This document shows, one piece after another, positions 530-23,880 of a stretch of 64,000 bases of DNA. The DNA lies in NCBI RefSeq assembly GCF_907164905.1, contig NZ_CAJRAF010000002.1, forward strand, positions 1,364,001 through 1,428,000, written 5' to 3'. Every line of letters starts with the position of its first letter. Position 1 is the first letter of the stretch. The position numbers were made by a program, and so were the translations under genes. The notes beneath the pieces were generated by a model. That model was not told the DNA's origin and did no database searches. It saw only the letters and a program-made list of their open reading frames with translations. Source of the DNA: Dyadobacter sp. CECT 9275 (GTDB lineage: Bacteria > Bacteroidota > Bacteroidia > Cytophagales > Spirosomataceae).

Positions 530-595
530 GGTGGGAGGTGGGCAGTAAAAGTAAACAGTAGTCAGTAGGCAGTAGGCGGTAGGTGGTAAAAAGTG
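530..595. repeat. Degenerate purine-rich intergenic repeat (GTAGGCGGT type)
   Basis: The gap between the SusD gene and the next gene is made of near-repeats of GTAGGCAGTAGGCGGTAGGT plus AAAGTAAACAGTAGTCAG. The same words recur at 22295-22620 and 37815-37860. It contains no credible coding sequence, although a GTG at 583 extends the next frame into it. Confidence 0.6.
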
Positions 596-603
596 ATGGT
601 CAA

Positions 604-2448
604 ATGGGTCAAAAAGTTAATAGTCATACACGTCGGAGATTTTTAAAGAGTACTGTTGCCAGTGTAGGCGCAGCGCAGGCTCTTCCCGGAATATTCGGAG
701 ACAATTCTGGTTTGCTGCGGGACAGCGTATCTGAAAAGAAAGAACCGCTCTCAAAAAAGCATAAAAACCTGTTCAATGGTGACACCTGTGTTTTCTTTTA
801 CAACCCTGAAAAATGGCAACCCGGGGATTATACCTTTAAGCGCGTCATTAATCCCAGAACCGGAAAGCTCAATACCAAAGAAACGCTGCAGGGTGGTCCT
901 TTTGCTGCCAAGGCCATCCACCGTTTTGTAGACGAACTGGCCGACAACGATATTGATACCTTTGTTATCAACGCCAACGCATCGCGGGCCTGGTACCCCA
1001 GCAAGACCATCCCGAGTATTCTGGACGGGTACAAACGTGGTGACCGTGATTTTTTCAGAGGCCACGCTATCTGCCAGGGAATTACGGAACCGGAAGCCGT
1101 TGAAGATTTTCTGGATACCTTCTCAGCTTTCATGGACCGCTACCAGGATTTGCTGGATGCCGGGGTAGACTGGCTTGCCGAAACATCAAAGGCTTGCCGC
1201 AGGCGCAAGATATCACCCTGGGTAAGTATCCGGATGAATGACCTTCACGGGAGCAACAACTTTGAGGGTAGTTTCTTCAACCTGCCTCTTTTGAAACAAA
1301 AGGAAATGCGGTTGCAGAATAGCTCCTATGGCCCGCACAACCCGTCGTATCGGGAAGGGCTTAATTATGAAAAGGCCGAAGTACGGGATATCATGTTCAG
1401 GCAGATCAGGGAGGTGGTGGAAGATTACGACTTTGAAGGCCTGGAACTAGACTGGTGGAGGCAGCCGCTTTGCTGTGAACCCAATGCTTCTGAGCAAACG
1501 ATTGAAATGATGCGCAACTGGATCAGGGAAATCAGGAAGCTCACACAGGCAAGGGCCAGAAAAACCGGCCGCCCCTACCCTTTGGGTATTCGGATCCCTG
1601 GCAGGCTGGATATTCTCAGAAGTATCGGTCTGGACGTAGTAACACTTTGCCAGGAAGGTACCCTGGATTTTATCTGTCCTTCGGGATTCTGGTGCACAAC
1701 CTGGGACATGCCGCACGACCAGCTGCGAAAGTTGCTGGGCGACAAGGTAACTATTTACGGGGTGATCGAAGACGGAGCCAATGCCCTTGCCACAGTGGAC
1801 CCGGAGCGGAATACTACCCAAAAACTAAGATACATTTCGGCAAGCAAAGAAATACTGCATGCCAACGCAGCTGGTAAACTTGCACTGGGCGCGCAGGGAA
1901 TAGAGTGGTTCAACTTCTATTGCACAGATCAGGCCCGGATTCCCGGCGTCATCACCGAATATGCCTCTCTGCGTAATATTTATAACCTGGACTATCTCCG
2001 CGGGCGTCCCAAACATTATTCTTTCGCAATAGGTGGCCGATCATTTAATCTGATTCCCTTTGAACTGCCACCGCAATTACCAGTGGTTCTGGAGCCTGTA
2101 TCCCAGCATCCCTTTAAGATACCCATGTGTGCGGAGCCGGCCAATGCCAACCTGGAACTCGTCATTCAGATCGTGCTGAAATCCGACGATCCGGTGACAC
2201 ATCTTCCGGTTTCTTTCAATGGTTGCTGGCCTAATCTGGTAAAGGAAAAAACGGCAAAGCTGCTCTTCCCGCTGGGATTCTACACCGACCACGTAAAGGA
2301 AAATACTGCGTACAACTTCAGGTTTCCCATCACGCTGGTAAAGGAAGGCTGGAATGAAATTGTGGTGGAGAATGGAGGCAAGGCAACTTTAAATGTAGTG
2401 TGTATCGAACTGGCGGTGAAGCCCACAGAATTTAATACGAAACAATAA
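604..2448 (+). CDS. Tat-exported TIM-barrel glycoside-hydrolase-like protein
   Basis: A 614-residue protein that I recognise only at fold level. The N-terminus has a twin-arginine motif (HTRRRFLKSTVASVG), so export in folded form is likely. The middle has alternating strand/helix spacing with conserved acidic and aromatic residues, including GLELDWWRQPLCC (E281, D283 in this numbering) and IYGVIEDGANAL, resembling clan-A glycosidase barrels. A beta-rich C-terminal domain (about residue 500 onward, PFKIPMCAEP...ATLNVVCIEL) looks like a carbohydrate-binding or sandwich domain. I chose the ATG at 604; a GTG at 583 would add seven residues that fall in the intergenic repeat. It is probably co-transcribed with the PhyH gene 26 bp downstream. 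The substrate is unknown. Confidence 0.7.
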   Translation: MGQKVNSHTRRRFLKSTVASVGAAQALPGIFGDNSGLLRDSVSEKKEPLSKKHKNLFNGDTCVFFYNPEKWQPGDYTFKRVINPRTGKLNTKETLQGGPFAAKAIHRFVDELADNDIDTFVINANASRAWYPSKTIPSILDGYKRGDRDFFRGHAICQGITEPEAVEDFLDTFSAFMDRYQDLLDAGVDWLAETSKACRRRKISPWVSIRMNDLHGSNNFEGSFFNLPLLKQKEMRLQNSSYGPHNPSYREGLNYEKAEVRDIMFRQIREVVEDYDFEGLELDWWRQPLCCEPNASEQTIEMMRNWIREIRKLTQARARKTGRPYPLGIRIPGRLDILRSIGLDVVTLCQEGTLDFICPSGFWCTTWDMPHDQLRKLLGDKVTIYGVIEDGANALATVDPERNTTQKLRYISASKEILHANAAGKLALGAQGIEWFNFYCTDQARIPGVITEYASLRNIYNLDYLRGRPKHYSFAIGGRSFNLIPFELPPQLPVVLEPVSQHPFKIPMCAEPANANLELVIQIVLKSDDPVTHLPVSFNGCWPNLVKEKTAKLLFPLGFYTDHVKENTAYNFRFPITLVKEGWNEIVVENGGKATLNVVCIELAVKPTEFNTKQ

Positions 2449-2474: not shown

Positions 2475-3239
2475 ATGGATATTGAATTAATAAAAAAACA
2501 ATTTGCAGAAGATGGTTATGTTTTTCTGCCTGGGTTTATTTCGGCAGAAGAAATTGAAGAACTGAATAAAAAACTCGAAACCTTTATTGAAAACGTAGTA
2601 CCAGGCATTCCGGCCACGGATGTTTTCTACGAAGACAAAAATGACCTTTCCACTTTAAAGCAGATCATGCACGTTTCGGAATACGAGCCCGACTTTGCTC
2701 CTTTGCTTAAAAATAGCAAGTTCAGTAAAATAGCTGAAGAACTGCTGGAAGACAAAGTGATACCGAGAATTCTGGAATATTTCAACAAACCTCCGAAAAT
2801 CGGAAAACCTACGCCGCCGCATCAGGATGGGTACTATTTCATGCTCAAACCGGCCAAAGCGGTCACCATGTGGATGGCGCTGGAAAATGTGGATGAAGCC
2901 AACGGATGCGTACGTTATGTAAAAGGTTCTCACCTAAAGGGGATGCGTACCCACGGCCGCACCCAAACGCTGGGCTTCTCGCAGGGGATTGTTGATTACG
3001 GACTGCCGGAAGATATGGAAAATGAAATTGCTTTTCCGGCCAAACCCGGCGACCTGCTCATCCACGATTCCCTCACGATACACCGTGCCGATGGAAACCA
3101 AACCGCCGATCGCACGCGGAAAGCTCTTGGCTTTATTTATTTCGGAGAATCTGCCAAAGAGGATGTGGAAGCCAAAGCCGCATACCAGGCCAGGCTGCAG
3201 AAAGAAATGCAGGAAAGAGGCGAGTTAATTACCGGGTAA
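2475..3239 (+). CDS. Phytanoyl-CoA dioxygenase (PhyH) family Fe(II)/2-oxoglutarate oxygenase
   Basis: 254 residues, the normal PhyH length. The facial triad is visible: H116-x-D118 in PTPPHQDGYYF and a distal H203 in LTIHRADGN, followed by the R in TADRTRKALGF that would bind 2-oxoglutarate. NGCVRYVKGSHLKG is the family's core strand. No signal peptide, so it is cytoplasmic. PhyH enzymes hydroxylate small molecules or acyl-CoAs. Inside a sugar locus a role in hydroxylating or demethylating an unusual substrate is possible, but that is inference. It lies 26 bp after the Tat hydrolase gene and 39 bp before the next propeller gene. Confidence 0.88.
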   Translation: MDIELIKKQFAEDGYVFLPGFISAEEIEELNKKLETFIENVVPGIPATDVFYEDKNDLSTLKQIMHVSEYEPDFAPLLKNSKFSKIAEELLEDKVIPRILEYFNKPPKIGKPTPPHQDGYYFMLKPAKAVTMWMALENVDEANGCVRYVKGSHLKGMRTHGRTQTLGFSQGIVDYGLPEDMENEIAFPAKPGDLLIHDSLTIHRADGNQTADRTRKALGFIYFGESAKEDVEAKAAYQARLQKEMQERGELITG

Positions 3240-3278: not shown

Positions 3279-4334
3279 ATGCTTAAAGTCACAAGATACC
3301 TTCTTATTTTCCTTCTCTCGGGATACTGCCATACCTGGGCAAACGCCGCCATCCCGGCCGACTCCATCAGTATAACCAGGGTATGGGACAAAGAGCAGCA
3401 CAATGCATTTCCGGATCTGATTCAGTTTAAGGATTATTTTTATATCACGTTCAGGGAAGGCGCCAACCATGTTGGGAACGAAAACAACGGCAAGGTGAGG
3501 ATCATCAGATCCAAAAACAGGAAAGACTGGGAGTCAGTGGCATTATTTGACATGGATGCCGAAGATGTGAGGGAAGCCAGGTTATCCCTGAGGCCCGACG
3601 GCACACTGATGGCGATTGTGGCCGCCGGCATTTTCAAAGACGGAAAATACCTTACCCTTGCTCCCTATGTCTCTTTTTCGGACAAAACAGGAACCCATTT
3701 CTCTACACCCGAAAAAACCACCTTTAGTAAGGAAATTGCACCAGCACTCGACTGGATCTGGAGAATCACCTGGCACAAAGGAATAGGCTACGGAATCATG
3801 TACTCCGTAGATTACAAGATGGTTGATGGCAAAAGGGTAAGAACCATGTACGCACAGCTGCTACGCACCAAAGATGGAAAATCTTACGAAAAGGTACCCG
3901 GCGTAGCTATTAACGGAAGCCCTAATGAATCCACAATCCGTTTTGACAGCCACGACAATATGTATGTACTGGCGAGAAGGGAAACGGACGACCAGATGGG
4001 CATACTCGCCGTGAGCGCCTTTCCCTATCGCACGTGGGAGTACCACAAATTAAGCCAGAGGCTTGGAGGACCTAACTTTCAGTTTATGGGCAAGGACCGG
4101 CTGGTGATAGGCACCCGTATGCACGAGGGCAACGCTGCCTCTACCGCGCTCCATGTGACAGACCTGAAAGGAAAGATTCTGAAAACCATTAAACTTCCCA
4201 GTGGAGGCGATAACAGCTATCCGGGAATGGTGCTGGATAAAAAGATACTCTGGGTAGCTTATTATTCCAGCCATGAAGGCAAAGCGATGATTTACCTGGC
4301 CCGGGTACCCGTCAGCGATCTGAAAACTAAATAA
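3279..4334 (+). CDS. Exported sialidase-fold (BNR-like) beta-propeller protein
   Basis: 351 residues with a signal peptide (MLKVTRYLLIFLLSGYCHTWANA). It opens with HNAFPDLIQFKDYFYITFREGANH (residues 41-64), shared in outline with the other propellers here, and has a late SYPGMVLDKKILWVAYYSSHEGKA strand. Asp boxes are degenerate (RSKNRKDW, LRTKDGKSYEK). The canonical sialidase F/Y-R-I-P arginine is not seen at the first blade, so a true sialidase activity is not supported. It is likely periplasmic or surface exposed and to act on, or bind, the locus substrate. Least similar to the other exported propellers in this locus. Confidence 0.75.
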   Translation: MLKVTRYLLIFLLSGYCHTWANAAIPADSISITRVWDKEQHNAFPDLIQFKDYFYITFREGANHVGNENNGKVRIIRSKNRKDWESVALFDMDAEDVREARLSLRPDGTLMAIVAAGIFKDGKYLTLAPYVSFSDKTGTHFSTPEKTTFSKEIAPALDWIWRITWHKGIGYGIMYSVDYKMVDGKRVRTMYAQLLRTKDGKSYEKVPGVAINGSPNESTIRFDSHDNMYVLARRETDDQMGILAVSAFPYRTWEYHKLSQRLGGPNFQFMGKDRLVIGTRMHEGNAASTALHVTDLKGKILKTIKLPSGGDNSYPGMVLDKKILWVAYYSSHEGKAMIYLARVPVSDLKTK

Positions 4335-4408
4335 GTAGATCGCCGGATCACCCGCCATACCGGCTAAAATCACAAAAGGTTTTTAATGATTATTCCTAAA
4401 CATAAACC

Positions 4409-5572
4409 ATGAGAGTTCTGAAAATTTCAGTTGTTTTGATATTAATAGCCCTGCATCCGGTTGCCATGGCAGGAGGCGAAAAATATGAAGGCCGCACATC
4501 CCTTGCTGACTCTGCACGGCATCTTATCATTTCAAAGGGTGGCGAAGCGGGTCTATATCAGGCATTCCCTGATGCCTGCCGGCTAAAAAACGGAGACATC
4601 GTAGCGGTGTTCTACGCAGGAGATGAACATGTTACCAAGCAAAGCACTCAGTATCCTAAAGCAGGAAGGCTCTGTATGGTACGTTCTAAAGATGAGGGCC
4701 GTACCTGGTCAAAGCCAGTTACCATATATGATGACGCAGACGATAACCGCGACCCTCACATTGCTCAGTTGAGTGACGGATCACTGATCTGCAGCTTTTT
4801 TTCACTTCGTTATGCCACTTTTGGCGCCAAGGATTATGAACCGGTAGGCGGCCCTCAGTTGATCCGTTCAAAAGACAATGGTAAAACCTGGGAGAAGAAA
4901 GCAACGCTTCTGCAAACCGGAAGCGTGGATTGGTATTGCTCAGCACCGGTACGCGAAATGCCGGACGGAACCCTCATTCTGCCTGTTTACTACATGGACA
5001 AAGGAGCTGTGCATGCCTGGGGCGGCGTGATCCGTTCAACGGACAAAGGTAAAACCTGGGGGCAGGTTATCCCCATTGGTCAGGAAGCCAACCTCCCGCT
5101 TGCTGCCGAAACAGATGTTATTCTACTGAAAGACGGAACATTGTATGCTGCCCTGAGAGCTCAAAAGGACTTCCCCATGCATTATGCCGTCAGCAAGGAC
5201 CTGGGTAAAACCTGGTCCAAAGCCATGGACATAGGTTTCAAAGGTCATTCTCCTTCCTTTACCCGGCTGAAAACAGGTGAGATCCTCCTTACCACCAGAG
5301 CATTCAAAGGAACTACCGGCAACAGAGGGTATACCGGACTCCGCGTCAGCCGCGATGAAGGAAAAACCTGGGAAGGACCTTATTTGGTGGATGAAACATT
5401 GGGCGCTTATCCTTCCACAGTGGAGCTCAAAGATAGCTCCGTGCTGGTGGTTTATTATGAAGAAGGCAAGGGAAGCGGTATCCGCGTCTTTCGTTTTAAC
5501 GTACCAGAAAAAAGCGGCGACCGTATCTCGCTCAACAATCCGGAAGCACTTTTAAAACTTCCTCTAAACTGA
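4409..5572 (+). CDS. Exported sialidase-fold hydrolase-like protein, paralog A1
   Basis: 387 residues with a signal peptide (MRVLKISVVLILIALHPVAMA). Five Asp boxes of the S-x-D-x-G-x-T-W type are spaced along the chain (SKDEGRTW, SKDNGKTW, STDKGKTW, SKDLGKTW, SRDEGKTW), defining a six-bladed sialidase-superfamily propeller. At the position of the GH33 F/YRIP arginine it reads YQAFPD (50-55). The late LGAYPSTVELKD strand places a tyrosine near where sialidases have the nucleophile. It is closely similar over its whole length to the protein at 8105-9262, so the two are recent duplicates. The leader TATTCCTAAAC lies 18 bp upstream and is shared with that copy. Substrate unknown. Confidence 0.8.
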   Translation: MRVLKISVVLILIALHPVAMAGGEKYEGRTSLADSARHLIISKGGEAGLYQAFPDACRLKNGDIVAVFYAGDEHVTKQSTQYPKAGRLCMVRSKDEGRTWSKPVTIYDDADDNRDPHIAQLSDGSLICSFFSLRYATFGAKDYEPVGGPQLIRSKDNGKTWEKKATLLQTGSVDWYCSAPVREMPDGTLILPVYYMDKGAVHAWGGVIRSTDKGKTWGQVIPIGQEANLPLAAETDVILLKDGTLYAALRAQKDFPMHYAVSKDLGKTWSKAMDIGFKGHSPSFTRLKTGEILLTTRAFKGTTGNRGYTGLRVSRDEGKTWEGPYLVDETLGAYPSTVELKDSSVLVVYYEEGKGSGIRVFRFNVPEKSGDRISLNNPEALLKLPLN

Positions 5573-5626
5573 CCGAAGGAAAAAAACCTAATTCTCATTC
5601 ATTACATATTCCCCAGTAAAAAGCCT

Positions 5627-6889
5627 ATGTCCACAACTGAAACAGCACCATTAAAAGCTGAGTATGTACTACCTTCCGGAGCATGGAGGGTAGTTGTTTT
5701 GCTGTGTTTTGTGGGTTGCCTTAATTACCTGGATCGTACCATGATCACCACCATGCGTACCTCAATTATCCAGGCAATGCCCATGACAGATGCGCAGTTT
5801 GGATTGCTTACTTCTGTTTTCCTTTGGGTGTATGGCATTCTGAGTCCGTTTGCAGGTTTCCTCGCCGACCATTTCAATCGCAGCCGGGTAATCATCATAA
5901 GTCTTTTTGTATGGTCTGCCGTTACATGGCTGACAGCCTATTGCACTTCCTTCGAACAGCTCCTGGCCACCCGTGTGCTCATGGGCATCAGCGAAGCCTG
6001 TTACATTCCTGCGGCTCTGGCGCTTATTGTCGACTATCATAAAACATCCACTCGTTCTCTGGCATCAGGGATTCACATTGCTGGCATCATGGTGGGCCAA
6101 AGCCTGGGTTTCGTTGGCGGCTGGATCGCAGAGAAACAAGACTGGAGTGCTCCGTTCGGCGTCTTTGGTGTGGTGGGTGTTGTTTATTCCTTCATCCTGC
6201 TGTGGTTGCTTAAGGATGCCCCAAAGACCGGGCAGCCGCAGGAAAAGAAACAGGAATCTGAGGTACATTTTTTCACCGCCTTAAAGAGCCTGTTCAGCCA
6301 GGGTTCTTTTCTTCTGTTGATACTTTTCTGGTCTTTGCTCGGTATTATCGGCTGGATGGTAATGGGCTGGATGCCCACTTACTATGAGGAACATTTTAAC
6401 CTTTCGCAGGGTATGGCCGGGTTATATGCAACGGGTTATCTCTACCCCGCTTCCATTGCAGGTGTTATTTTAGGCGGATTTTTAACCGACCGCTTTTCCC
6501 GCGGCAATTCCATATCCACATTTCTGGTGCCGGTAATCGGCCTTTGTATTGCCGCTCCGGCTATTTTTATTGCCAGTAACACCACGGTACTTCCGCTGGC
6601 AATCACCATGTTCATGTTTTACGGGCTGACACGTATGTTCAGCGATGCCAACATCATGCCGATACTCTGCCTGATAGCGGATGTCAGATACCGGGCAACG
6701 GGTTATGGTGTCATTAATTTATTCGCCTGCGTCATCGGAGGCTTAGGCTTGTATGCAGGGGGTGTGTTGCGGGATATGGATGTAGACCTTGGAAAAATAT
6801 TTCAGTCTGCGGCTTTGCTCATGGTTGTCTGCATCGGATTGCTGTATCTGATCCGGAGAGGGGTAAATAAAAAATCGGAGGAAATATGA
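5627..6889 (+). CDS. MFS transporter, organic-anion/sugar-acid type
   Basis: 420 residues with about 12 hydrophobic helices. The loop 2-3 MFS motif is visible (GFLADHFNRSRVI), and helix 1 carries CLNYLDRTMITTMRTSI, typical of the anion:cation symporter/sugar-acid branch of the MFS. A cytosolic central loop (GQPQEKKQESEVHFF) separates the two halves. Its stop codon overlaps the start of the next gene (ATGA at 6886-6889), so it is translationally coupled to the cytoplasmic propeller. It probably imports the monomer released by the exported propellers, or a product of them. Confidence 0.88.
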   Translation: MSTTETAPLKAEYVLPSGAWRVVVLLCFVGCLNYLDRTMITTMRTSIIQAMPMTDAQFGLLTSVFLWVYGILSPFAGFLADHFNRSRVIIISLFVWSAVTWLTAYCTSFEQLLATRVLMGISEACYIPAALALIVDYHKTSTRSLASGIHIAGIMVGQSLGFVGGWIAEKQDWSAPFGVFGVVGVVYSFILLWLLKDAPKTGQPQEKKQESEVHFFTALKSLFSQGSFLLLILFWSLLGIIGWMVMGWMPTYYEEHFNLSQGMAGLYATGYLYPASIAGVILGGFLTDRFSRGNSISTFLVPVIGLCIAAPAIFIASNTTVLPLAITMFMFYGLTRMFSDANIMPILCLIADVRYRATGYGVINLFACVIGGLGLYAGGVLRDMDVDLGKIFQSAALLMVVCIGLLYLIRRGVNKKSEEI

Positions 6890-8013
6890 AAATTATTGAC
6901 AAAGGAAAAATACCTACACCCGACCATGACAAAAATTTCAGAAGTAACACTTTTCCGTGTATCGAGATATTACCCTCTGGAAGATGGCTTGCTGCCTTCA
7001 AAGCAGCAGAAATAAAAGGTGACTGCGCGTTTCAGCATGCAGTAATGACCTGGTCGGACGATGAAGGCAAAACCTGGATCACTCCTTATGAGCCGGTGAA
7101 ACTCCCCGATATTAACGGAACTCCCGGCCTGAGCAGGATTATGTACTTTCTGAGCCTCGGCGGCAGCCGTGTGCTGATGCTCGCCAACTGGATGGATGCC
7201 TCGGATATGTCTCTTCCTTATTACAACCCTGATCAAGAAAACCTGAAAGATACCCGGATTTTTACAAGTATTTCGGAAGACGAAGGTGAAACCTGGTCAT
7301 CACCACAGTTAATGAACATCCCCGGCATCACTGACCCTGTCCCTTTGACGGGAGCGCCGTTCAGGCTGGGAAACGGGATTATTGTATGCCAGTTTGAGAT
7401 CAACAAATCCGAAAATGATACGTCGCCCTGGGTACATCGCTCAGCCATGGTGTTTTCAGACGACGATGGTAAAACCTGGAACGATCCCGTGGTGGTAACC
7501 GAGGTACCTGATATGTATTACTGGGATCAGCGGCCGGTGATCCTGCAGGACGGGCGCACTATAGTTGATTTCTTCTGGACACTGGATGGGAAAAAACAGG
7601 AATACATCAATATCCACGGAAGAGAAAGTACCGACGGTGGAAAAACCTGGGGCGAGCTTTGGGATACCGGTATTTATGGCCAGCCCGGTCCTTCTGTTGA
7701 CCTGGGTGACGGACGCCTGGTAACCATCAGTATCGACAGAACCGTGCATCCGGTGATAACGGTAAGGATCTCATACGACCGGGGCCGGACGTTTGACGAA
7801 CCGCTGGTAGTGTTTGAAAAAAACAACCTGAACAGGCAAGACAGTAGGCAGATCAGCATGAACGACGCCTGGGACGAAATGGCTGCCTTTTCGGTAGGCC
7901 ATCCGGCGTTGGAAAAGATCAATGACAACGAGTTGCTGGCTTATTACTACGCGGGTGACCATACGGATGAAACAAGCATAGAATTCGTCAGAATTCAGAT
8001 CCGGGAAACATAA
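6886..8013 (+). CDS. Cytoplasmic sialidase-fold (Asp-box) protein coupled to the MFS transporter
   Basis: 375 residues. There is no signal peptide (starts MKIIDKGKIPTPDHDK), unlike the other propellers. Five Asp boxes are present (SDDEGKTW, SEDEGETW, SDDDGKTW, STDGGKTW, SYDRGRTF). A clear Shine-Dalgarno, CGGAGG, lies 5 bp upstream inside the end of the transporter gene, and the start overlaps the transporter stop by 4 bp, so this start is secure. A cytosolic propeller coupled to an importer suggests that it processes the imported compound. It could instead be a non-catalytic binder. Arginine-triad positions cannot be assigned with confidence. Confidence 0.8.
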   Translation: MKIIDKGKIPTPDHDKNFRSNTFPCIEILPSGRWLAAFKAAEIKGDCAFQHAVMTWSDDEGKTWITPYEPVKLPDINGTPGLSRIMYFLSLGGSRVLMLANWMDASDMSLPYYNPDQENLKDTRIFTSISEDEGETWSSPQLMNIPGITDPVPLTGAPFRLGNGIIVCQFEINKSENDTSPWVHRSAMVFSDDDGKTWNDPVVVTEVPDMYYWDQRPVILQDGRTIVDFFWTLDGKKQEYINIHGRESTDGGKTWGELWDTGIYGQPGPSVDLGDGRLVTISIDRTVHPVITVRISYDRGRTFDEPLVVFEKNNLNRQDSRQISMNDAWDEMAAFSVGHPALEKINDNELLAYYYAGDHTDETSIEFVRIQIRET

Positions 8014-8104
8014 AACTTGATGATATGGATGTAAATACAATTTAATGCAGACAACCAAACGCCAAAAGCTAATAGCTAGAACCTATTCCTAAACCATAAC
8101 CATT

Positions 8105-9262
8105 ATGACTACCTACCCATTTCGCGGACTGATGCTGCTTATCTGCCTCATGGCAACGGCCTCTCTACAGGCTTCCGATATAAAAACGGCACCGGCCGAC
8201 ACCCTCAAGCCCATTATGATTTCAAAAGGTGGAGACGCAGGTGATTATCAGGCTTTCCCTGACGCCTGCAGGCTGAAAAACGGAGATATTGTTGCCGTAT
8301 TCTATGCAGGTGACGAGCACGTAACCAAACAAAGCGAAAAGTACCCGAAGGCGGGAAGGATCTGCCTGGTACGCTCCAAAGATGAAGGGCGCACGTGGAG
8401 CAAACCTGTGACCATTTACGATGATACCGACGACAACCGCGATCCGCACATTGCCCAACTTAGTAACGGTGCACTGGTTGTCAGCTTCTTCTCCCTCAGA
8501 TATGCTACGTTCGGTGCAAAAGAATATAAGACGCTGGGTAGCCCTCAGCTCATCTGGTCAAAAAATAATGGGAAGACCTGGGACAAAGAAGCTACTCTTC
8601 TTAAGACCGGAGATATTGACTGGCTTTCTTCCGCTCAGGTAAGGGAAATGCCGGATGGTACGGTTATCCTGCCCATTTATCATCAGGAAGGCAAAGGAGG
8701 GCTCAAAGCCTGGGGCGGCGTGATGCGTTCCGCTGATAAAGGCAAAACCTGGGGCCCTGTGATCCCCATCGGCGAAAAAGCCAACCTTCCCCTGGCTGCT
8801 GAAACCGATGTGATTTTACTGAAAGACGGCACGCTCTACGCCGCTTTACGGGCTCAGCAAGAGGTACACATGCATTATTCAACCAGCAAGGACATGGGCA
8901 AAACCTGGTCAGATGTAAAAGATATTGGTTTCCGGGGGCACTCACCTTCTTTCACCAGACTTAAATCCGGTGAGATATTACTTACTACCAGGGCATTCCG
9001 GGAAGCGCCTTCCAAGAAAGGATACACTGGCCTGCGGATCAGCCGCGACGAAGCCAAAACCTGGGAAGGTCCTTATCTCGTGGATGAAACGCTTGGGGCT
9101 TACCCGTCCACTGTGGAGCTGAAAGACGGTTCGGTACTGGTGGTGTATTATGAAGAAGGCAAGGGAAGCGGAATCCGTGCTTATCGTTTTAAGATACCGG
9201 CCAAAGCAACAGATGCCCCGTTTGCCACCCCCAGAAGCCTGGGGATTCTTACCAGCAAATGA
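8105..9262 (+). CDS. Exported sialidase-fold hydrolase-like protein, paralog A2
   Basis: 385 residues with a signal peptide (MTTYPFRGLMLLICLMATASLQAS). It matches the 4409-5572 product nearly residue for residue from GGDAGDYQAFPDACRLKNGD through GAYPSTVELKDGSVLVVYYEEGKGSGIR. It keeps the Asp boxes (one changed to SRDEAKTW) and has the same Q in place of the sialidase RIP arginine. It sits after the MFS/cytosolic-propeller pair and before the DapA-type aldolase. The leader TATTCCTAAAC (8084-8094) is shared with paralog A1. Divergence is greatest in the signal peptide and the C-terminal tail. Confidence 0.8.
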   Translation: MTTYPFRGLMLLICLMATASLQASDIKTAPADTLKPIMISKGGDAGDYQAFPDACRLKNGDIVAVFYAGDEHVTKQSEKYPKAGRICLVRSKDEGRTWSKPVTIYDDTDDNRDPHIAQLSNGALVVSFFSLRYATFGAKEYKTLGSPQLIWSKNNGKTWDKEATLLKTGDIDWLSSAQVREMPDGTVILPIYHQEGKGGLKAWGGVMRSADKGKTWGPVIPIGEKANLPLAAETDVILLKDGTLYAALRAQQEVHMHYSTSKDMGKTWSDVKDIGFRGHSPSFTRLKSGEILLTTRAFREAPSKKGYTGLRISRDEAKTWEGPYLVDETLGAYPSTVELKDGSVLVVYYEEGKGSGIRAYRFKIPAKATDAPFATPRSLGILTSK

Positions 9263-9321
9263 TGCGCATACTTTAATTCTTTAGTTTCTCCGGCGCTAAA
9301 ATCGGCCACAAACATAACACG

Positions 9322-10254
9322 ATGGAGCAGCTTTCGGCTCAAAATTTAAAAGGGACCTGGTGTACAATGCTTTTGCCCGTCAGGGCAGATAACGGTATTG
9401 ACTATCAGTTACTGGAAGACGAGCTGGACATACTCTGCAGTGCCGGTATCAGCGGAATTTATTCAAATGGTACTGCGGGCGAGTTTTTCAACCAGACCGA
9501 ATCAGAATTTGACTCCATCAATCAGTTATTGGCACAAAAATGCAGTCAGTCTGGTATTCCCTTTCAGATTGGTGCAAGTCACATGAGCCCGCTCATTTCT
9601 CTGGAAAGGATCCGGCGGTCACGGTCTTTAAAACCAGGAGCTTTTCAGGTAATCATGCCCGACTGGGTAGCGCCCAACCCTGATGAGCAAGTAAACTTTC
9701 TGAAAGTGATTGCCGAAGAGGCCTTCCCAATCCCATTGGTTTTATATCATGTGGGCCATACCAAAACGGTTTTGAAACCAGCCGACTTTGGCCGGCTGGC
9801 GCTGGAAATCCCCTCCCTGATCGGCATAAAAGTAGGTGCCGGTGGGGCTGAATGGTATACCGCAATGCTGAAGGAAAATCCGCCGCTTTCCGTTTTTGTT
9901 CCCGGCCACAAACTCGCCACCGGTGTGAAAGAAGGCGTGGCCTCAGGAGCTTATTCCAATATGGCCTGTATCCATCCGCAGGCAGCGCAGCAATGGTATC
10001 TGCTAATGCAGGAAGATTTGCCCGCGGCACTGGAGATGGAACAGCGGATTACACAATTTTTCGATCAGTGTATTTTACCACTGCATTTTAAAGGTTATTC
10101 TGACATGGCGCTGGACAAATTCCTGGCGGCAATAGGAGGCTGGACCGCCGTTGGCACACGTGTAAGGTGGCCCTACCAGTCAATTGACCAACAAGAGGTA
10201 TCGGCAGTCCGAAAAATTGGCAGAAAGTTGATACCCGAATTTTTCCTTGTCTGA
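9322..10254 (+). CDS. DapA/NanA-family aldolase or dehydratase
   Basis: 310 residues, the standard length of the dihydrodipicolinate synthase/N-acetylneuraminate lyase superfamily. The Schiff-base lysine is K170 in LIGIKVGAGG and the catalytic tyrosine Y142 in LVLYHVGHTK; their spacing (28) equals that of E. coli DapA (Y133/K161). The SNGTAGEFF segment corresponds to the GTTGE substrate-carboxylate loop. Next to propellers and transporters rather than lysine genes, it more likely cleaves or dehydrates a 2-keto-3-deoxy sugar acid than makes dihydrodipicolinate. Cytoplasmic. The exact substrate cannot be read from sequence. Confidence 0.88.
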   Translation: MEQLSAQNLKGTWCTMLLPVRADNGIDYQLLEDELDILCSAGISGIYSNGTAGEFFNQTESEFDSINQLLAQKCSQSGIPFQIGASHMSPLISLERIRRSRSLKPGAFQVIMPDWVAPNPDEQVNFLKVIAEEAFPIPLVLYHVGHTKTVLKPADFGRLALEIPSLIGIKVGAGGAEWYTAMLKENPPLSVFVPGHKLATGVKEGVASGAYSNMACIHPQAAQQWYLLMQEDLPAALEMEQRITQFFDQCILPLHFKGYSDMALDKFLAAIGGWTAVGTRVRWPYQSIDQQEVSAVRKIGRKLIPEFFLV

Positions 10255-10304
10255 ACTTCACATACTTCAATACCACAGCAACCATTTTACCAAACCCCAT
10301 TATA

Positions 10305-11519
10305 ATGAGATTGAATAAGATATCAGGACTTTTTTTAGTTTTCACCCTGGTGATGATCTACGCTCCGGGTATCCAGGCCCGCTCCTTTTCTCTTCCCGGA
10401 GCTGCCCTACTTGCGGCTGACAGTATTCCTGGAGTGCGTAAAATCGAAGATGTGATCATTTATCAGAATCCGGATTTTCACGCTGCTTTTCCATCAGTCA
10501 TCAAAAAGAAAAACGGTGAGATACTGCTTGCTTTCCGCCGGGCCCCCAATCGGAAAATTTTCAGTGAAAAGGGCACCAATCATGTCGACCCGAACAGTTA
10601 TCTCGTAGCGGTGAAATCGAAAGACGGCAAAACCTGGACCCCTGAACCAGAATTGATCTATGCACATACTTTTGGAGGTTCTCAGGACCCCTGTCTGCTT
10701 CAGTTGAAAGACGGTACCCTGTTGTGCGCCAGTTATGGATGGGCATTTGTACGTCCCGACGGCATCCCCAATTTAAAAAAACCATACTTCGAAGCAGGTG
10801 GTGCTATTTTCCTGGGAGGCTACATCATGCGTTCTACCGATGGCGCCAAATCCTGGCAGGGACCCATTTACCCTCCTCATATCGCCCCGGAAATTAATCA
10901 TACCGCCCTTGGAAACATGGTTCCGGCATATAACCGTGGTGCCATGTATGAGGGCAAGGACGGACGGATTTTTTGGGTTGTAGCGGCGACTGACCAGCAA
11001 AAGCCCGGTAAAACTTCCAATCACCTGCTGATATCATCCGACAAAGGGCTTACCTGGAAATATTCCGCTCCGGTGGCAGTGGACAGCAAGGTATCTTTTA
11101 ATGAAGCCTCGGTTTATGAAACACCCAAAGGTAATCTGGTTGCTTTTCTGAGAACCGCCGGGCTGGATGACCAGGCCTGTATTGCACGCTCCACCGATGG
11201 CGGAAAAACTTTTACTGCCTGGGAGAAAATGGGATTTCAGGGACACCCGTTACAGGCACTTCGCCTGCCCGATAACCGCGTGCTGGTTTCCTACGGATAC
11301 CGCCATAAACCGCTGGGCATCCGGGCCCGGATTCTGAACGCCGAATGTACCGATTTTGCAACGGCTCCGGAAATTGTTCTGCGCACAGACGGAGGCAGTA
11401 CCGACCTTGGATATCCCTGGGCCGTTCAGCTGGATAAGAACCGCGTGCTGGTCAGTTATTATTTCAATGTTCCAGGCGGCCCGCAGCACATTGCCGGAAG
11501 TATTCTGGAAATCAAATAA
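10305..11519 (+). CDS. Exported sialidase-fold hydrolase-like protein, paralog B1
   Basis: 404 residues with a signal peptide (MRLNKISGLFLVFTLVMIYAPGIQA). The first blade reads FHAAFPSVIKKKNGEILLAFRRAPNRK (59 onward), with HAAFPS where GH33 sialidases have F/YRIP. Asp boxes include SSDKGLTW and STDGGKTF; others are the short SKDGKTW form. Conserved GGSQDPCLLQL and FQGHPLQALRLPDNRVLVSYGYRHKPLGIRARIL blocks are nearly identical in the protein at 13164-14354. The B pair is clearly distinct from the A pair (4409, 8105), so the locus has two separately duplicated propeller types. Substrate unknown. Confidence 0.8.
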   Translation: MRLNKISGLFLVFTLVMIYAPGIQARSFSLPGAALLAADSIPGVRKIEDVIIYQNPDFHAAFPSVIKKKNGEILLAFRRAPNRKIFSEKGTNHVDPNSYLVAVKSKDGKTWTPEPELIYAHTFGGSQDPCLLQLKDGTLLCASYGWAFVRPDGIPNLKKPYFEAGGAIFLGGYIMRSTDGAKSWQGPIYPPHIAPEINHTALGNMVPAYNRGAMYEGKDGRIFWVVAATDQQKPGKTSNHLLISSDKGLTWKYSAPVAVDSKVSFNEASVYETPKGNLVAFLRTAGLDDQACIARSTDGGKTFTAWEKMGFQGHPLQALRLPDNRVLVSYGYRHKPLGIRARILNAECTDFATAPEIVLRTDGGSTDLGYPWAVQLDKNRVLVSYYFNVPGGPQHIAGSILEIK

Positions 11520-11552
11520 ACGGATCGTGTGCTTATCTCAAATTTCACCGAC

Positions 11553-12254
11553 ATGCTGATGAAAATACGCCGGTCCTGCTTCCCAGGAGTTACTGTCACC
11601 ATGCTACTATTGGTTTTTCATACCGCCAATGGCCAGCAAACAAACTGGGATAGCACCGCAAGGCCTGATGTTTATGCTCCGCGGGTTGGGTTGATGAAAA
11701 CGTTTCGTCACTCCAGAAAGGACATTGTTTTCCTGGGGAACAGCATCACATTCTGGGCCGAATGGAGCGAATTTCTGGAAAACCGGCATGTAAAGAACCG
11801 GGGCATTCCCGGCGACAACAGCTTCGGTGTTCTCGAACGCCTCGGAGAGGTAACCAACGGAAAACCAGCAAAGATTTTTGTAATGATCGGCATCAATGAC
11901 CTGGCCCGGAATATCCCGGCAGAAATATTACTGAAAAATTTCCAGCGGATTGTCCGTAGGATAAAAACGGAATCTCCCGACACACGAATCTATCTTCAAA
12001 CCCTGCTTCCGACCAATGATTCCTTCCACAAAATGACCAATCACTGTAATAAGGACGCGGTGATCAGGGACGTAAACCTTGGGCTGGACCAATTGGCAAA
12101 GGACGAAAAAGTCTCTTTCGTTGATCTGTACAGCCACTTTGCGGATGAAAAGGGAAAATTAAAAAAGGAGCTTACATGGGATGGCGTACACCTTACGGCG
12201 GAGGGATATCTGCTTTGGGCCGCTGTCCTGAAACGGGGTAAGTATTTAAGATAA
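11553..12254 (+). CDS. Exported SGNH/GDSL-family esterase or lipase-like hydrolase
   Basis: About 234 residues with a signal peptide ending near TANGQ. All SGNH blocks are visible: block I FLGNSIT (nucleophile Ser), block II GIPGDNS (Gly), block III MIGINDLA (Asn) and block V WDGVHLTAEGY (Asp and His). These enzymes remove acetyl or other acyl esters from glycans, so a deacylase role before propeller action is plausible. I prefer ATG 11553 (ATG 11559 is equally possible); a GTG at 11529 also exists but would put extra residues before the signal peptide. It starts 33 bp after the paralog B1 stop. Confidence 0.85.
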   Translation: MLMKIRRSCFPGVTVTMLLLVFHTANGQQTNWDSTARPDVYAPRVGLMKTFRHSRKDIVFLGNSITFWAEWSEFLENRHVKNRGIPGDNSFGVLERLGEVTNGKPAKIFVMIGINDLARNIPAEILLKNFQRIVRRIKTESPDTRIYLQTLLPTNDSFHKMTNHCNKDAVIRDVNLGLDQLAKDEKVSFVDLYSHFADEKGKLKKELTWDGVHLTAEGYLLWAAVLKRGKYLR

Positions 12255-12310
12255 CAACCGGAAATCTCAGATTTCCATCATGAATAGTTTCAACAAACCA
12301 TGTATTCTGA

Positions 12311-13099
12311 ATGACAGCTTACCATACTGATATATTCCAACTGAACGACAAGCACATCTGGGTATTTGGCGGAGCAGGTTACCTGGGGCAGGCTACCGTG
12401 CTGATGCTCTCCAGGCTAGGGGCAAAAGTCCTTTGTGTGGATCTGGACAACCGAGCGGAAATCTTTGTAAGGAATAACAATTTAACAGGTGTTACACCCG
12501 CCTCGCTTGACATCAGAGAGACAGGGGCATGTGAACAGTTTGTCAAAGACCGGATCGCAGAGCGGGGTGTTCCGGACGGTTACGTAAACCTGACCACTGC
12601 AACAACAGCAAAAAAAATGGAAGACCTCACCGCCGAAGATTTTGATTCCGTAAATCATGGTGGCTTAACCTCCACCTTTATCCTCACCCGGGCGATCGGC
12701 AGCCAGATGGCCGTTCGCAACAGGGGAAGTATTGTACTGTTTTCCAGCATGTACGGAACGGTATCTCCCTATCCCGAGGTATATCAGGAACCGATGAACA
12801 AAAATCCGCTGGAATACGGGATTGGCAAGGCGGGAATCACCCAGATGACCCGTTATTTGGCCGTGCACTGGGGGAAATCCAATGTACGTTGTAACTGCAT
12901 TTCTCCGGGCCCGTTCCCCAATCCTGAGGTACAGAAAACCCATGGGGCCTTTGTGGAAAGACTGGCCGGGAAGTCTCCGCTGGGCCGAATCGGACAGGCG
13001 GAGGAGATAGCAGGTTCCGTGGCTTTCCTGTTGTCCGGGATTTCTTCCTATATCACCGGCCACAACCTGGCCGTGGATGGCGGGTGGACCTGCTGGTAG
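12311..13099 (+). CDS. SDR family oxidoreductase
   Basis: 262 residues, classical SDR length. The N-terminal nucleotide motif is VFGGAGYLGQA, with V-D at the end of strand 2 (LCVDLDNR), which favours NAD(H). The catalytic serine is in VLFSSMYG and the YxxxK motif is intact as EYGIGKAG; the C-terminus has the usual ISSYITGHNLAVDGGW. Within this locus it probably oxidises or reduces a sugar or sugar-acid hydroxyl. There is a 56-bp gap from the esterase gene. Compare with the SDR at 22633, which has lost the active-site lysine. Confidence 0.88.
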   Translation: MTAYHTDIFQLNDKHIWVFGGAGYLGQATVLMLSRLGAKVLCVDLDNRAEIFVRNNNLTGVTPASLDIRETGACEQFVKDRIAERGVPDGYVNLTTATTAKKMEDLTAEDFDSVNHGGLTSTFILTRAIGSQMAVRNRGSIVLFSSMYGTVSPYPEVYQEPMNKNPLEYGIGKAGITQMTRYLAVHWGKSNVRCNCISPGPFPNPEVQKTHGAFVERLAGKSPLGRIGQAEEIAGSVAFLLSGISSYITGHNLAVDGGWTCW

Positions 13100-13163
13100 G
13101 ACGCCTCAGGTTTATCCATCTTAAAAACATTTTTTGAAACACCATTCCTAACCCCAATATCTT

Positions 13164-14354
13164 ATGCAATTGAACACGCTTATACGACTCGGGCTGATGC
13201 TTGTCCTTATCTGCAAAGGCCTCTATGATGTTTCGGCCGACCCTATGCCGGGCGACAGTATTAAAGGTGTCCGGAAAGTTCAGGATGTCATGATTTATCA
13301 GGACAGTCAGTTCCACTGTGCATTTCCTTCTGTTGTTAAACTGAAAAACGGGGAAATTTATGTAGCCTTCCGCCGTGCTCCAAACCGGAAAATATTTGGC
13401 GAAAAAGGTACCAGCCACGTAGACCCGAACAGCTATCTGGTAGCGGTACGCTCCAAAGACGGGAAAACCTGGACCAAAGAACCTGAACTGATCTATGCGC
13501 ACCCCTTTGGTGGTTCGCAGGACCCATGTCTGCTGCAATTGCGGAACGGGAATTTGTTATGCGCCAGTTATGGATGGGCGTTTGTTCGTCCTGATGGTCT
13601 CCCAAACCTTAAAAAACCGCATTTTGAAACCTCGGGCGCCACATTTTTGGGTGGTTACATGGTACGTTCCACCGATGACGCAAAATCCTGGAAAGGTCCC
13701 GTTTATCCGCCACATATCGAACAGGAAATTCTTTACACCGCCATGGGAAATCCACTTCCAGCTTATAACCGCGGTGCTTTGTATGAGGCAAAGGATGGCC
13801 GCATTTTATGGGTTGTTGCCAATACCGACAGGGAAACACCTAACAAGACCTCCAATCACCTGATTGTTTCGGAGGACAAGGGCCTTACCTGGAAATACTC
13901 AAGCGCCGTGGCGGTAGACGACAAGATTTCCTTCAATGAAACATCCGTTTATGAAACGCCGAAGGGGGATATCGTTGCATTTATGAGGACCGAAGACAAT
14001 GGCGACCAAGCTTGCATCGCACGATCCACAGATGGCGGAAAAACATTTAAACCCTGGGAGAGCATGGGCTTTCAGGGACATCCGCTGCAGGCGCTTCGCC
14101 TCCCCGACAACCGGGTACTCCTCAGTTACGGTTACCGCCACAAGCCGCTGGGAATCCGGGCACGTATTCTGAATGCGGAATGTACCGATTTTGCCACAGC
14201 TCCTGAAATAATTCTACGTACAGATGGCGGCAATGGTGACCTGGGTTATCCCTGGGCAGTTCAGCTGGATAAAAAACATGTGCTGGTAACTTACTATTTC
14301 AATGTGCCGGGAGGTATGCAGCATATTGCGGGCAGTATTCTGGCAATAGACTAA
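13164..14354 (+). CDS. Exported sialidase-fold hydrolase-like protein, paralog B2
   Basis: 396 residues with a signal peptide (MQLNTLIRLGLMLVLICKGLYDVSA). Nearly identical in layout and much of its sequence to the 10305-11519 product: FHCAFPSVVKLKNGE, GGSQDPCLLQL, NETSVYETPKGD, FQGHPLQALRLPDNRVL. The first-blade arginine of sialidases is again absent (HCAFPS, 51-56). It lies 6 bp upstream of the sodium:solute symporter gene, so substrate release and uptake are probably co-expressed. The leader carries ATTCCTAA about 20 bp before the start, as in the A pair. Confidence 0.8.
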   Translation: MQLNTLIRLGLMLVLICKGLYDVSADPMPGDSIKGVRKVQDVMIYQDSQFHCAFPSVVKLKNGEIYVAFRRAPNRKIFGEKGTSHVDPNSYLVAVRSKDGKTWTKEPELIYAHPFGGSQDPCLLQLRNGNLLCASYGWAFVRPDGLPNLKKPHFETSGATFLGGYMVRSTDDAKSWKGPVYPPHIEQEILYTAMGNPLPAYNRGALYEAKDGRILWVVANTDRETPNKTSNHLIVSEDKGLTWKYSSAVAVDDKISFNETSVYETPKGDIVAFMRTEDNGDQACIARSTDGGKTFKPWESMGFQGHPLQALRLPDNRVLLSYGYRHKPLGIRARILNAECTDFATAPEIILRTDGGNGDLGYPWAVQLDKKHVLVTYYFNVPGGMQHIAGSILAID

Positions 14355-14360
14355 CCCCAG

Positions 14361-15914
14361 ATGATGCCGCATCCCATCAACACGCAGGTGCCACTCCTTG
14401 CAGCAATGCCCCGGCTAACCTACCCGGACTGGATAGTCATAGCCGTTTACGGTGCATTGATGCTTTTTATTGGCTGGTACTATTCACGCAGAAACAAAAC
14501 CCAGGAAGACTACGTGCTAGGGGGCCGTAAAATGAACCCTACCTCGGTGGGTATCTCCTTGTTTGCTACGCTGCTCAGTACCCTGAGTTACCTGTCCTAT
14601 CCCGGCGAGATGATCAAACACGGGCCGGTAATCTTCTCCGGAATGATTGCCTATCCGGTGATCTATTACGTGGCAGGCTGGTGGCTGATTCCCTACATCA
14701 TGAAAATGAAGGTAACCAGCGCTTATGAAATCCTGGAAAGAAAACTGGGGCTCAGTGTGCGGATGCTGGCAACGTTCATGTTTCTGTCGCTCCGGTTTTT
14801 ATGGATGGCTACCATTGTTTACGTCACGGTAGACGTTGCTTTGTTATCTGTTATTGATATTAACCCTGCCTATACTCCGTTCATTGGCATCATCCTCATG
14901 CTGGTTACCATCATTTATACTTCTATGGGTGGCCTTAAAGCGGTCGTTCTTACCGATGTGATCCAGTCAGCCATCTTTCTGGGCGGGGCTGTTCTGAGTA
15001 TCATCATCATCTGTCTGAACCTGGATTCCTTTACAGGCATATTTCCAAAACAATGGCCCGCTCACTGGGATACACCCCGGCTCGGATTTAACGTCATGGA
15101 ACGTACCTCAGTAGGAAATGCTGCCCTGGTAATTTTCACCTGGTACGTATGTACTACCGGATCTGACCAAATGGCCATACAACGTTACTTGTCAACCAAA
15201 GACATCCGGGACGCCAGAAAAACCCTGCGGGTTTCGTTTTTTTCAAGCATGCTTTCAGACCTGCTGCTGGCGCTTCTGGGATTATCCATGCTTGCGTTTT
15301 ATGTCAAAAATCAGCATTTTCTGTTACCAGGACAAACAATTTACGAGCAGGCAGATACTCTTTTCCCGAGGTTCATCATGATCGGGTTGCCTGCGGGGCT
15401 TTCGGGACTGGTCATTTCCGGCTTGCTGGCAGCCGCCATGTCCAGTATGTCGTCGGGTTTGAACAGTGTGTCGTCCGTTATCGCCGAAGACTTCCTGAAA
15501 CGGTTCCGGAATCCATCAGCCACACCACCTGACCCGCTCAGGCTTGTTAAACAGCTCTCCTACTTTTCCGGAGGTATTGTAATTGTGCTCAGTCTTTTTG
15601 TGTCGGGCGTACAGGGAAACCTCTATGAAGTGGTCATGAAAGTCGTCAATCTATTTGTAGCACCCTTGTTCGTCCTGTTTTTCATGGCCCTGTTCGTCCC
15701 TTTTGCTACCGAAAGAGCCACTTTTGCTGCGGGCCTCATAGCGGTTGGTGCCGCCATAGGGGTGGCGTTTTATGGTGTTTTTGGTATTACCATTCTGTGG
15801 ATGATGCCGTGTTCACTGGTTACAGGCGTTGCGGTTGGCGTGCTGCTGAGCCTCCCTGACAGGTTCTTACTTAAAAAAGGGCAATCCAGGGATCCGTTGA
15901 AAGTCTCTGAGTAG
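14361..15914 (+). CDS. Sodium:solute symporter (SSS family)
   Basis: 517 residues with about 13 hydrophobic helices. It has the family features YYSRRNKTQEDYVLGGRKM after helix 1, SLFATLLSTLSYLSYPGE in helix 2, GGLKAVVLTDVIQ around helix 6, and the ATGSDQ-type segment (TTGSDQMAIQRYLSTKD). SSS members import sugars, sialic acid, proline or similar compounds with sodium. It starts 6 bp after paralog B2 (ATG 14361, or 14364 immediately after it). It is a second importer in the locus beside the MFS at 5627, implying either two products or two uptake routes for one. Confidence 0.9.
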   Translation: MMPHPINTQVPLLAAMPRLTYPDWIVIAVYGALMLFIGWYYSRRNKTQEDYVLGGRKMNPTSVGISLFATLLSTLSYLSYPGEMIKHGPVIFSGMIAYPVIYYVAGWWLIPYIMKMKVTSAYEILERKLGLSVRMLATFMFLSLRFLWMATIVYVTVDVALLSVIDINPAYTPFIGIILMLVTIIYTSMGGLKAVVLTDVIQSAIFLGGAVLSIIIICLNLDSFTGIFPKQWPAHWDTPRLGFNVMERTSVGNAALVIFTWYVCTTGSDQMAIQRYLSTKDIRDARKTLRVSFFSSMLSDLLLALLGLSMLAFYVKNQHFLLPGQTIYEQADTLFPRFIMIGLPAGLSGLVISGLLAAAMSSMSSGLNSVSSVIAEDFLKRFRNPSATPPDPLRLVKQLSYFSGGIVIVLSLFVSGVQGNLYEVVMKVVNLFVAPLFVLFFMALFVPFATERATFAAGLIAVGAAIGVAFYGVFGITILWMMPCSLVTGVAVGVLLSLPDRFLLKKGQSRDPLKVSE

Positions 15915-23499: not shown

Positions 23500-23880
23500 A
23501 TGAAAAAAGTAAATCATCCCGACCGAAATCCAGACTTCGCAACCGGTGCTTATTCTGACGGCATTATCGTTGACGGCTTTTTATTTGTAAGCGGTCAGGC
23601 GGCCGTAGACTTTAAAACTTCAAAATTTGTGCTCGGTACCATTGAAGAAGAGACCCGGCTGACACTGGACAATATCAAAGCCATTGTGGAAGCAGCAGGT
23701 GCAAGCATGGAGAACGTCGTAAAATGTACGGCACACCTGGCTGATATCAATGAATTTGACAGGTACAATACAGTATATGCCACCTATTTCCCGGGAATAA
23801 AACCAGCCAGAACCACGGTGCAGTCCGTACTGGCAGAAAACATCCGCGTGGAAATAGATTGTATTGTAAAACTGCCGTAG
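23500..23880 (+). CDS. RidA/YjgF-family enamine/imine deaminase
   Basis: 126 residues, normal RidA length. Motifs: GFLFVSGQAAVD (substrate-pocket Gly), ENVVKCTAHLADINEFDRYNTVYATYF and the terminal PARTTVQSVLAENIRVEIDCIVKLP with the family arginine. RidA hydrolyses reactive 2-aminoacrylate-type imines to keto acids. Its place in a catabolic locus with a PLP aminotransferase suggests clearing of enamine or imine intermediates or a direct deamination step on an amino sugar acid. The stop is 17 bp before the next gene. Confidence 0.9.
   Translation: MKKVNHPDRNPDFATGAYSDGIIVDGFLFVSGQAAVDFKTSKFVLGTIEEETRLTLDNIKAIVEAAGASMENVVKCTAHLADINEFDRYNTVYATYFPGIKPARTTVQSVLAENIRVEIDCIVKLP

Follow-up and report, generated by a model that had tools for sequence, protein, structure and literature searches.

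Six predicted propeller proteins in one Dyadobacter gene cluster

The stretch of DNA analyzed here (the window, 64,000 nucleotides) covers positions 1,364,001 to 1,428,000 of contig NZ_CAJRAF010000002.1 of Dyadobacter sp. CECT 9275, a 7.23 Mb genome in 4 contigs, and holds a plus-strand run of genes (583-25924) that encodes six predicted propeller proteins related to GH33 sialidases. The six open reading frames (ORFs) are all intact and specify proteins of 351-404 amino acids, namely B3279 (3279..4334), B4409 (4409..5572, 387 amino acids), B6886 (6886..8013), B8105 (8105..9262), B10305 (10305..11519) and B13164 (13164..14354). Up to position 22294 neighboring genes of the run are separated by -4 to 176 bases, and the three gaps after that measure 338, 446 and 50 bases.

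A first-pass annotation of the window had described six sialidase-fold propellers, five of them exported and one cytoplasmic. The results showed that five of the six match Pfam BNR_2 above its cut-off. The exception, B3279, matched no Pfam family at E 0.001 and no NCBIfam family; its kinship appears in BLAST comparisons with B4409 (E 4.4e-7) and B8105 (E 1.3e-6) and in the set of motifs described below, and its family was aligned to GH33 by hhalign at 35.8% (E 4e-4), as against 98.5% for the B4409 family, 96.8% for the B10305 family and 97.7% for the B6886 family. Evidence for a sialidase fold in B3279, which rests on these BLAST and hhalign comparisons, is thus weak, and the count of six holds with that reservation. 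For B6886 a structural model predicts a sialidase propeller, as all 50 VIA-align rows obtained with it were sialidases, candidate sialidases or 5HX0; a propeller-lyase fold was absent from these 50 rows, an absence that excludes nothing. Exo-arabinanases, which belong to GH93, gave only weak matches with the B6886 profile (0.0007). The predicted locations agree with the hydrophobicity of the N termini, where the best 12-residue mean was 1.67 in B3279 (the weakest), 2.38-2.88 in the other four exported-looking proteins and 0.77 in B6886, which has no hydrophobic N terminus.

The motif [HY]-x-A-F-P-[DS], reported as common to the exported proteins, is present in 5/5 of them, with N-T-F-P-C in B6886. 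Relaxed to [HYF]x[AST]FP[DS], it occurs in 118 of the 120 best database hits of B10305 (one of which, P0141, is the window's own B13164). A chance origin of the motif was rejected on a narrow control, in which one unrelated family, 93,324 residues in all, gave 0 matches. The Asp boxes, which the annotation had taken to be kept, are so in B4409 (5 by a strict pattern), B6886 (5) and B8105 (4), but number only 2 each in B10305 and B13164 and 0 in B3279.

The proteins B4409/B8105 (74% identity) and B10305/B13164 (75%) form the close pairs that had been noted before. On a tree read with a support mark of 95/80, which did not include L109, a fourth orthologue, or L110-L112, B10305 was joined by three syntenic orthologues from Dyadobacter (94/89, just short of the mark) and B13164 fell in a separate clade of the same family with P0142, P0143 and P0148 (100/99). 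B4409 is about equidistant (69-72%) from B8105 and its three syntenic Dyadobacter orthologues, which are themselves 79-85% like B8105. Because of these clades and identities recent tandem duplication of either pair was ruled out, and one member of each pair, B4409 in the first, is judged from the sequences to be an older paralogue or an acquired gene.

Active-site residues of the propeller families

GH33 sialidases hold the carboxylate of the substrate with an arginine triad, of which Arg1 is paired with a glutamate in a salt-bridge role, and employ a Tyr and Glu nucleophile pair together with an acid/base Asp. The four propeller families (38 rows) were aligned with 13 of 23 GH33-type proteins from Dyadobacter, predicted enzymes in which FRIP and the remaining catalytic residues are present, using as reference numbering Arg1 R38, acid/base Asp63, Glu244, Arg2 R260, R322, Tyr355 and Glu371. 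The Arg1 of the RIP motif is lost in 38/38 rows, being replaced by A8/S4/T1 in the B10305 family (A61 in B10305), by A in 6/6 rows of the B4409 family (A52) and in 7/7 of the B3279 family (within the NAFPD at 42-46), and by T9/A2/S1 in the B6886 family (T22). Its site is A, S, T or G in 120/120 of the best hits of B10305 and is never Arg in the 120 best hits of B6886, five of which have 'RIP' within their first 60 residues but ahead of the TFP/AFP motif. The partner Glu371 has likewise become Tyr in every row (13/13, 6/6, 7/7 and 12/12 for the B10305, B4409, B3279 and B6886 families; Y386, Tyr350, Tyr328-329 and Tyr355 in the respective window proteins). The arginine loss announced by the first-pass annotation for the exported five is therefore real, and it extends to B6886.

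The remaining catalytic positions separate the families, in keeping with the earlier suggestion that the propellers are diverging. All three exported families keep Glu244, Arg2 and Tyr355 in every row (13/13, 6/6 and 7/7 for the B10305, B4409 and B3279 families): E267, R283 and Y370 in B10305; Glu234, Arg250 and Tyr334 in B4409; Glu217, Arg233 and Tyr314 in B3279, whose motif set reads NAFPD, PNES, ARR, SYP and YY. The B6886 family has instead Gln for Glu244 (12/12; Gln215), Trp for Arg2 (12/12; Trp231) and His for Tyr355 (10/12; His339), the other two rows having Gln and Leu. In the column of the acid/base Asp63 the B10305 family has His in 13/13 rows (H93), and the other families have Y/G, N/S/A or a gap, in a loop whose alignment is unsure; an invariant His lies in the same loop in the B4409 (H74) and B3279 (H64) families without being reliably aligned. 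Near the R322 column each family has an Arg, invariant R333 (B10305), R297 (B4409) and R280 (B3279), and R285 of B6886, present in 119/120 hits.

Conservation was also read from the 120 best hits. H93, D95, E267, R283, R333, Y370, Y385 and Y386 are invariant in the B10305 family, as are R78, R79, R83, R211, R340 and R342; together with R333, these six are candidates for restoring the Arg triad from elsewhere in the sequence. In the B6886 family E171, N173, K174, W182, H184, W213, D214, Q215, Q266, P340 and Y355 are invariant, and 18 of 27 positions, chosen mostly for conservation, vary in at most 2/120 rows. Of 8,000 proteins scored in the B10305 search, 3,170 matched at E 0.001, and where the 120 listed have a name it is mostly 'sialidase-1' or 'sialidase family protein'; because of the residue pattern, these names are unproven.

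Loss of Arg1 is common among the BNR proteins of the host genome, in which only L006 of 13 further ones has an N-terminal FRIP (two L009 proteins of equal length were counted as one row), while three L009 rows carry RIP in a late blade. The genome's own GH33-type protein of the alignment lies at G000:C4:544700-545857, with relatives in 30/59 genomes including its own, some at only 39-40% identity. A second own-genome cluster (L009 6034-14638; G000:C4, about 799-807 kb) holds five BNR_2 propellers together with SusD-family, DHDPS (dihydrodipicolinate synthase)-family, two GDSL, AstE/AspA-type and PALP-type proteins, and an MFS transporter 62% like that of the window.

Comparison with characterized and solved sialidase-fold proteins

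From GH33 sialidases (own-genome L006/L080; NanI; Neu2) the exported families thus differ in Arg1, in Glu371 and in the replaced or unaligned acid/base Asp, and B6886 also at Glu, Arg2 and Tyr; they share the kept Glu, Arg2 and Tyr, and B6886 shares the modeled fold. A known parallel to an incomplete Arg triad with a retained Glu is GH181, represented by Amuc_1547 (AmGH181) of Akkermansia, which keeps R234, R305 and E218; Gln367 stands in for the third Arg and Gln350 for the Tyr, and the enzyme is inverting and cleaves sialosides (PMC10067855, PMC12018670). Among solved structures, residues 232-334 of B4409 are matched best by GH181 chains (E ~4e-8). In our reading of the alignment E234, R250 and R306 fall on chain positions 197, 213 and 284, which a constant shift of 21 equates with GH181 E218, R234 and R305. 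Tyr334 of B4409, invariant in 6/6 family members, lies where GH181 has His349 followed by Gln350, and GH181 has a carbohydrate-binding-module-like C-terminal domain (chains 8AXI, 8AXS and 8AXT, 576-582 amino acids) that the shorter window propellers do not have. Because the Tyr is kept and the extra domain is missing, the window propellers are not GH181 enzymes.

B10305 is a homologue of PDB 5HX0 (Dfer_1899 of Dyadobacter fermentans), a public structure from another species with no assigned function, which scored 774.7 bits with the B10305 profile, aligned at 398 of its 399 positions, and contains AFPS, NEAS, GYRHK, YPW and YYF in the alignment; a search by name of the literature library used found no paper on 5HX0 or Dfer_1899.

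Pathway genes of the run

The run opens with a 621-amino acid protein (583..2448) and a PhyH-type dioxygenase (2475..3239), the latter recognized by Pfam and a conserved member of the locus. An MFS transporter (5627..6889; best NCBIfam model TIGR00893, D-galactonate type, under cut-off) overlaps the B6886 gene by 4 bases. Between B8105 and B10305 lies a DHDPS-family protein (9322..10254), and between B10305 and B13164 a GDSL esterase-like protein with a hydrophobic N-terminal stretch (11529..12254) and a short-chain dehydrogenase/reductase (SDR; 12311..13099). These are followed by a sodium:solute symporter (SSF; 14361..15914), a fusion of Amidohydro_2 with a class-III pyridoxal phosphate (PLP) aminotransferase (15939..18275, hereafter 15939), a conserved locus protein (18352..19311), an HpcH/HpaI-family aldolase of 2-oxo acids (19488..20294), an aldo/keto reductase (AKR; 20350..21303), a Gfo/Idh/MocA oxidoreductase (21362..22294), a second SDR (22633..23412) and two 3-hydroxyacyl-CoA-dehydrogenase (3HCDH)-type oxidoreductases (23859..25924; 23859-24896 by Pfam and 24947-25924 by NCBIfam, under cut-off), all on the plus strand. 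On the minus strand beyond them is an AraC-type regulator (26116..26982), judged by eye, with proteins 64-94% identical at the related loci L019, L025, L075 and L076. Upstream, mostly before the window start, is a SusD-family protein (SusD_RagB 3.1e-25; L010 2902-4518).

Like SusC/SusD loci, the run thus combines an upstream SusD-family protein with exported-looking enzymes, transporters and a regulator in one recurring arrangement, but it is rich in propellers and oxidoreductases, and the Pfam scans named no classical polysaccharide-cleaving family in it; 583-2448 and 18352-19311 matched nothing, the latter also in NCBIfam. Two proteins farther along, seen by eye, are a repetitive, exported-looking one of 1750 amino acids (32527-37779) and one (37948-39570) that resembles a ceramidase-like protein at one end of L075 (954-2345), the L075 protein matching PF04734 just short of the cut-off.

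The DHDPS-family protein scored 29.7 and 24.8 bits with N-acetylneuraminate lyase models whose cut-offs are 281 and 382, no NanA equivalog was found by NCBIfam, and no NanE or NanK family was found among 20 locus proteins in Pfam scans. The run is therefore not a classical N-acetylneuraminic acid (Neu5Ac) locus, and to that extent the first-pass claim that this is not a sialic-acid locus stands. Its observation of the missing arginine is sound in its core, but the step from there to 'not sialic acid' is unsupported, because GH181, with an incomplete triad and no Tyr, hydrolyzes sialosides, so that a sialic acid substrate is consistent with a triad that lacks one Arg.

PRK09186, a flagellin modification model, was the best NCBIfam match of both SDRs, at 122.6 bits for the first (nearly tied with gluconate 5-dehydrogenase at 121.6) and 170 bits for the second (with PtmA lower in the list); KduD-type models were matched too, all under cut-off. 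Another aminotransferase lies between the two 3HCDH-type genes in L025, L074 and L075, and in L075 these are accompanied by a gene of the M19 dipeptidase family. For the PLP domain of 15939 the nearest model is PRK06209 (212.8 bits; cut-off 486), and the score of 15939 itself (214.7 bits) is within the range of many other HemL-like matches (about 209-265). A NeuB gene lies within 10 kb of 30 of the 37 best-scoring PRK06209-type genes, in Bacteroidota, among the matches listed, a count that compares the 37 best aminotransferase places with a chosen part of the NeuB places. On a tree of PLP domains the 15939 group joined the NeuB-locus aminotransferases at 83/87, with long branches and under the 95/80 mark. 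This tree left out L115 and L116, the two PRK06209 matches above cut-off; L132 and L133 in it were wrongly picked ORFs (branch length 10, in no group), and L127 was placed in the second aminotransferase group despite its label hemL (both this label and neuB were assigned by score and place). The grouping is a lead, not a result, and points, if anywhere, to a nonulosonic-like substrate, contrary to the exclusion made in the first-pass annotation. When the Amidohydro_2 and aminotransferase fusion was searched for, 7,721 of 8,000 scored candidates matched at E 0.001, many perhaps via one domain; all 120 listed have both Pfam domains, with Larkinella, Arenibacter and Opitutus among the named holders.

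Recurrence of the locus

Synteny in Dyadobacter was compared over four other loci, L073-L076, with the carriers of B10305 homologues G306, G326, G327 and G329 outside the comparison. The four share, in the same or nearly the same order, genes for PhyH, B3279, MFS, B8105 or B6886, B10305, GDSL, SDR, an 18352-type protein, HpcH, AKR, Gfo and SDR, and wherever the stretch extends that far, large ORFs occupy the SusC/SusD place; in L076, the same locus as L016, B6886 occupies the place of B8105 in the other three. The window locus has both B6886 and B8105 and in addition B4409, DHDPS, B13164, SSF and 15939, and is an expanded version of the Dyadobacter locus. Since 15939, SSF, B6886, HpcH and AKR are common to L019, L020 and L025 (Chitinophagaceae, Sphingobacteriales and Pleomorphovibrio), part of what was added to the window locus goes with this system in other lineages as well.

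Among relatives the locus is an accessory one. Counting the own genome each time, B6886 was found in 2/59 relatives and 1/296 phylum-wide genomes, B3279 in 6/59 relatives (one at 44%), B10305 in 9/59 (one a fragment) and a B4409-type protein at at least 74% in 4/59. Across 13 loci, B6886 keeps 55-71% identity in the 12 from Spirochaetota, Bacillota and Bacteroidota and 42% in the one from Planctomycetota, and the 18352-19311 protein is 37-60% identical in L016, L019, L020 and L073-L075. A Spirochaetales locus (L022 3721-6059 and neighbors) has two adjacent BNR proteins with fumarate-reductase-type flavoproteins, an ABC oligopeptide-type transporter and a DHDPS-family gene. In P0331 (585 amino acids) a B6886-like propeller ends near residue 284 and a portion of an MFS protein follows; since this is probably a chimera or the product of a deletion, it was not used as proof of a BNR-MFS fusion.

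Candidate functions of the locus

We favor, with moderate confidence, the explanation that this is an accessory SusD-linked utilization locus for a small acidic (carboxylated) sugar conjugate, in which the propellers would be exo-glycosidases, the cytoplasmic one with a different chemistry. The order of steps that we infer begins with the five exported propellers, which are probably exo-acting glycosidases with the GH33 nucleophile pair (Tyr and Glu), Arg2 and an invariant late-propeller Arg still in place. The Arg1/Glu pair is exchanged for a small residue and a Tyr, and the acid/base Asp region for a loop with a conserved His; with the clamp and the acid/base replaced, a carboxylate sugar other than Neu5Ac would therefore be read, or read differently. 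Import of the released acid would fall to the MFS or the SSF transporter. Inside the cell, the propeller that has lost Glu, Arg2 and Tyr may act on the imported intermediate, and the oxidoreductases, the amidohydrolase-aminotransferase fusion and the HpcH-type aldolase would finish the breakdown.

Several observations weigh against this explanation. The His at the aligned Asp place is limited to the B10305 family; the third triad Arg is not cleanly aligned, the GH33 R322 column being gapped or variable in the families; and R306 of B4409 is not conserved, being Lys or Ser in the four other loop-bearing members of its family, with the sixth member lacking the loop. The aldolase, the SDRs and the 3HCDH-type dehydrogenases all score under their NCBIfam cut-offs. 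The aldolase does not prove a sugar-acid pathway, because its best model is HpaI (4-hydroxy-2-oxoheptanedioate, 118.5 bits), slightly ahead of 2-dehydro-3-deoxyglucarate aldolase (114.3), both far under cut-off, and its best solved match is 2,4-dihydroxyhept-2-ene-1,7-dioic acid aldolase, followed by YfaU, a 2-keto-3-deoxy sugar aldolase. Finally, SusC is called from ORF size (1008 amino acids) and place only, mostly before the window start.

It is somewhat unlikely that the propellers are sialidases in a wide sense, holding a nonulosonic acid by two arginines while the fusion and SDRs degrade an amino- or N-acylated form. The activity of two-Arg GH181 and its match to 232-334 of B4409 would fit, as would the NeuB-linked grouping and neighborhood of the 15939 aminotransferase (83/87; 30/37) and PRK09186 as best model of both SDRs; but that grouping is under the mark on long branches, the PRK06209 score lies within the HemL-like range, the NCBIfam matches are under cut-off, the Nan families sought were not found in the scans described above, and the Gln of GH181 at the Tyr site is not shared. 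A bolder reading, which we consider doubtful, makes the B6886 family a cytoplasmic sialidase-fold class (Bacteroidota, Spirochaetota, Bacillota and, distantly, Planctomycetota) with a wholly rebuilt active site that would complete the breakdown of an undescribed acid of the amino- or N-acyl nonulosonic type, its exported partners being a family of two-Arg, Tyr-nucleophile glycosidases outside GH33 and GH181.

That the propellers are beta-eliminating uronate lyases, with His and Tyr as acid/base and an Arg neutralizer as in PL24, PL25 and PL42, and with SDRs and aldolase processing unsaturated uronates, seems to us improbable. H93, Y370 and several Arg are invariant in the B10305 family, the SDRs also match KduD-type models, and FoRham1 (PL42) offers a precedent, with His85 proposed as base-acid catalyst and Arg166 as neutralizer; but FoRham1 has seven blades (PMC8377490), the kept Glu-Arg2-Tyr set would lack an explanation, and the 50 VIA-align rows of B6886 are all of sialidase type, though other families are not thereby excluded. 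Least probable of all would be binding or structural proteins, or inactive relics. The BNR protein Amuc_0623, which an earlier indirect assay had called active, was inactive on the sialosides tested in a later study (PMC10067855), and B6886 has none of the GH33 Glu, Arg2, Tyr and Arg1; against this are the many invariant positions in the 120 homologues of B10305, the 18/27 nearly constant positions of B6886 and the identity of the latter across three phyla.

A sialidase fold with a kept nucleophile and a swapped carboxylate clamp would be a compact test of substrate change within a fold, for which the residue pattern yields a short list of mutants and substrates. The cytoplasmic B6886, without any of the GH33 residues checked, may carry out a new chemistry.

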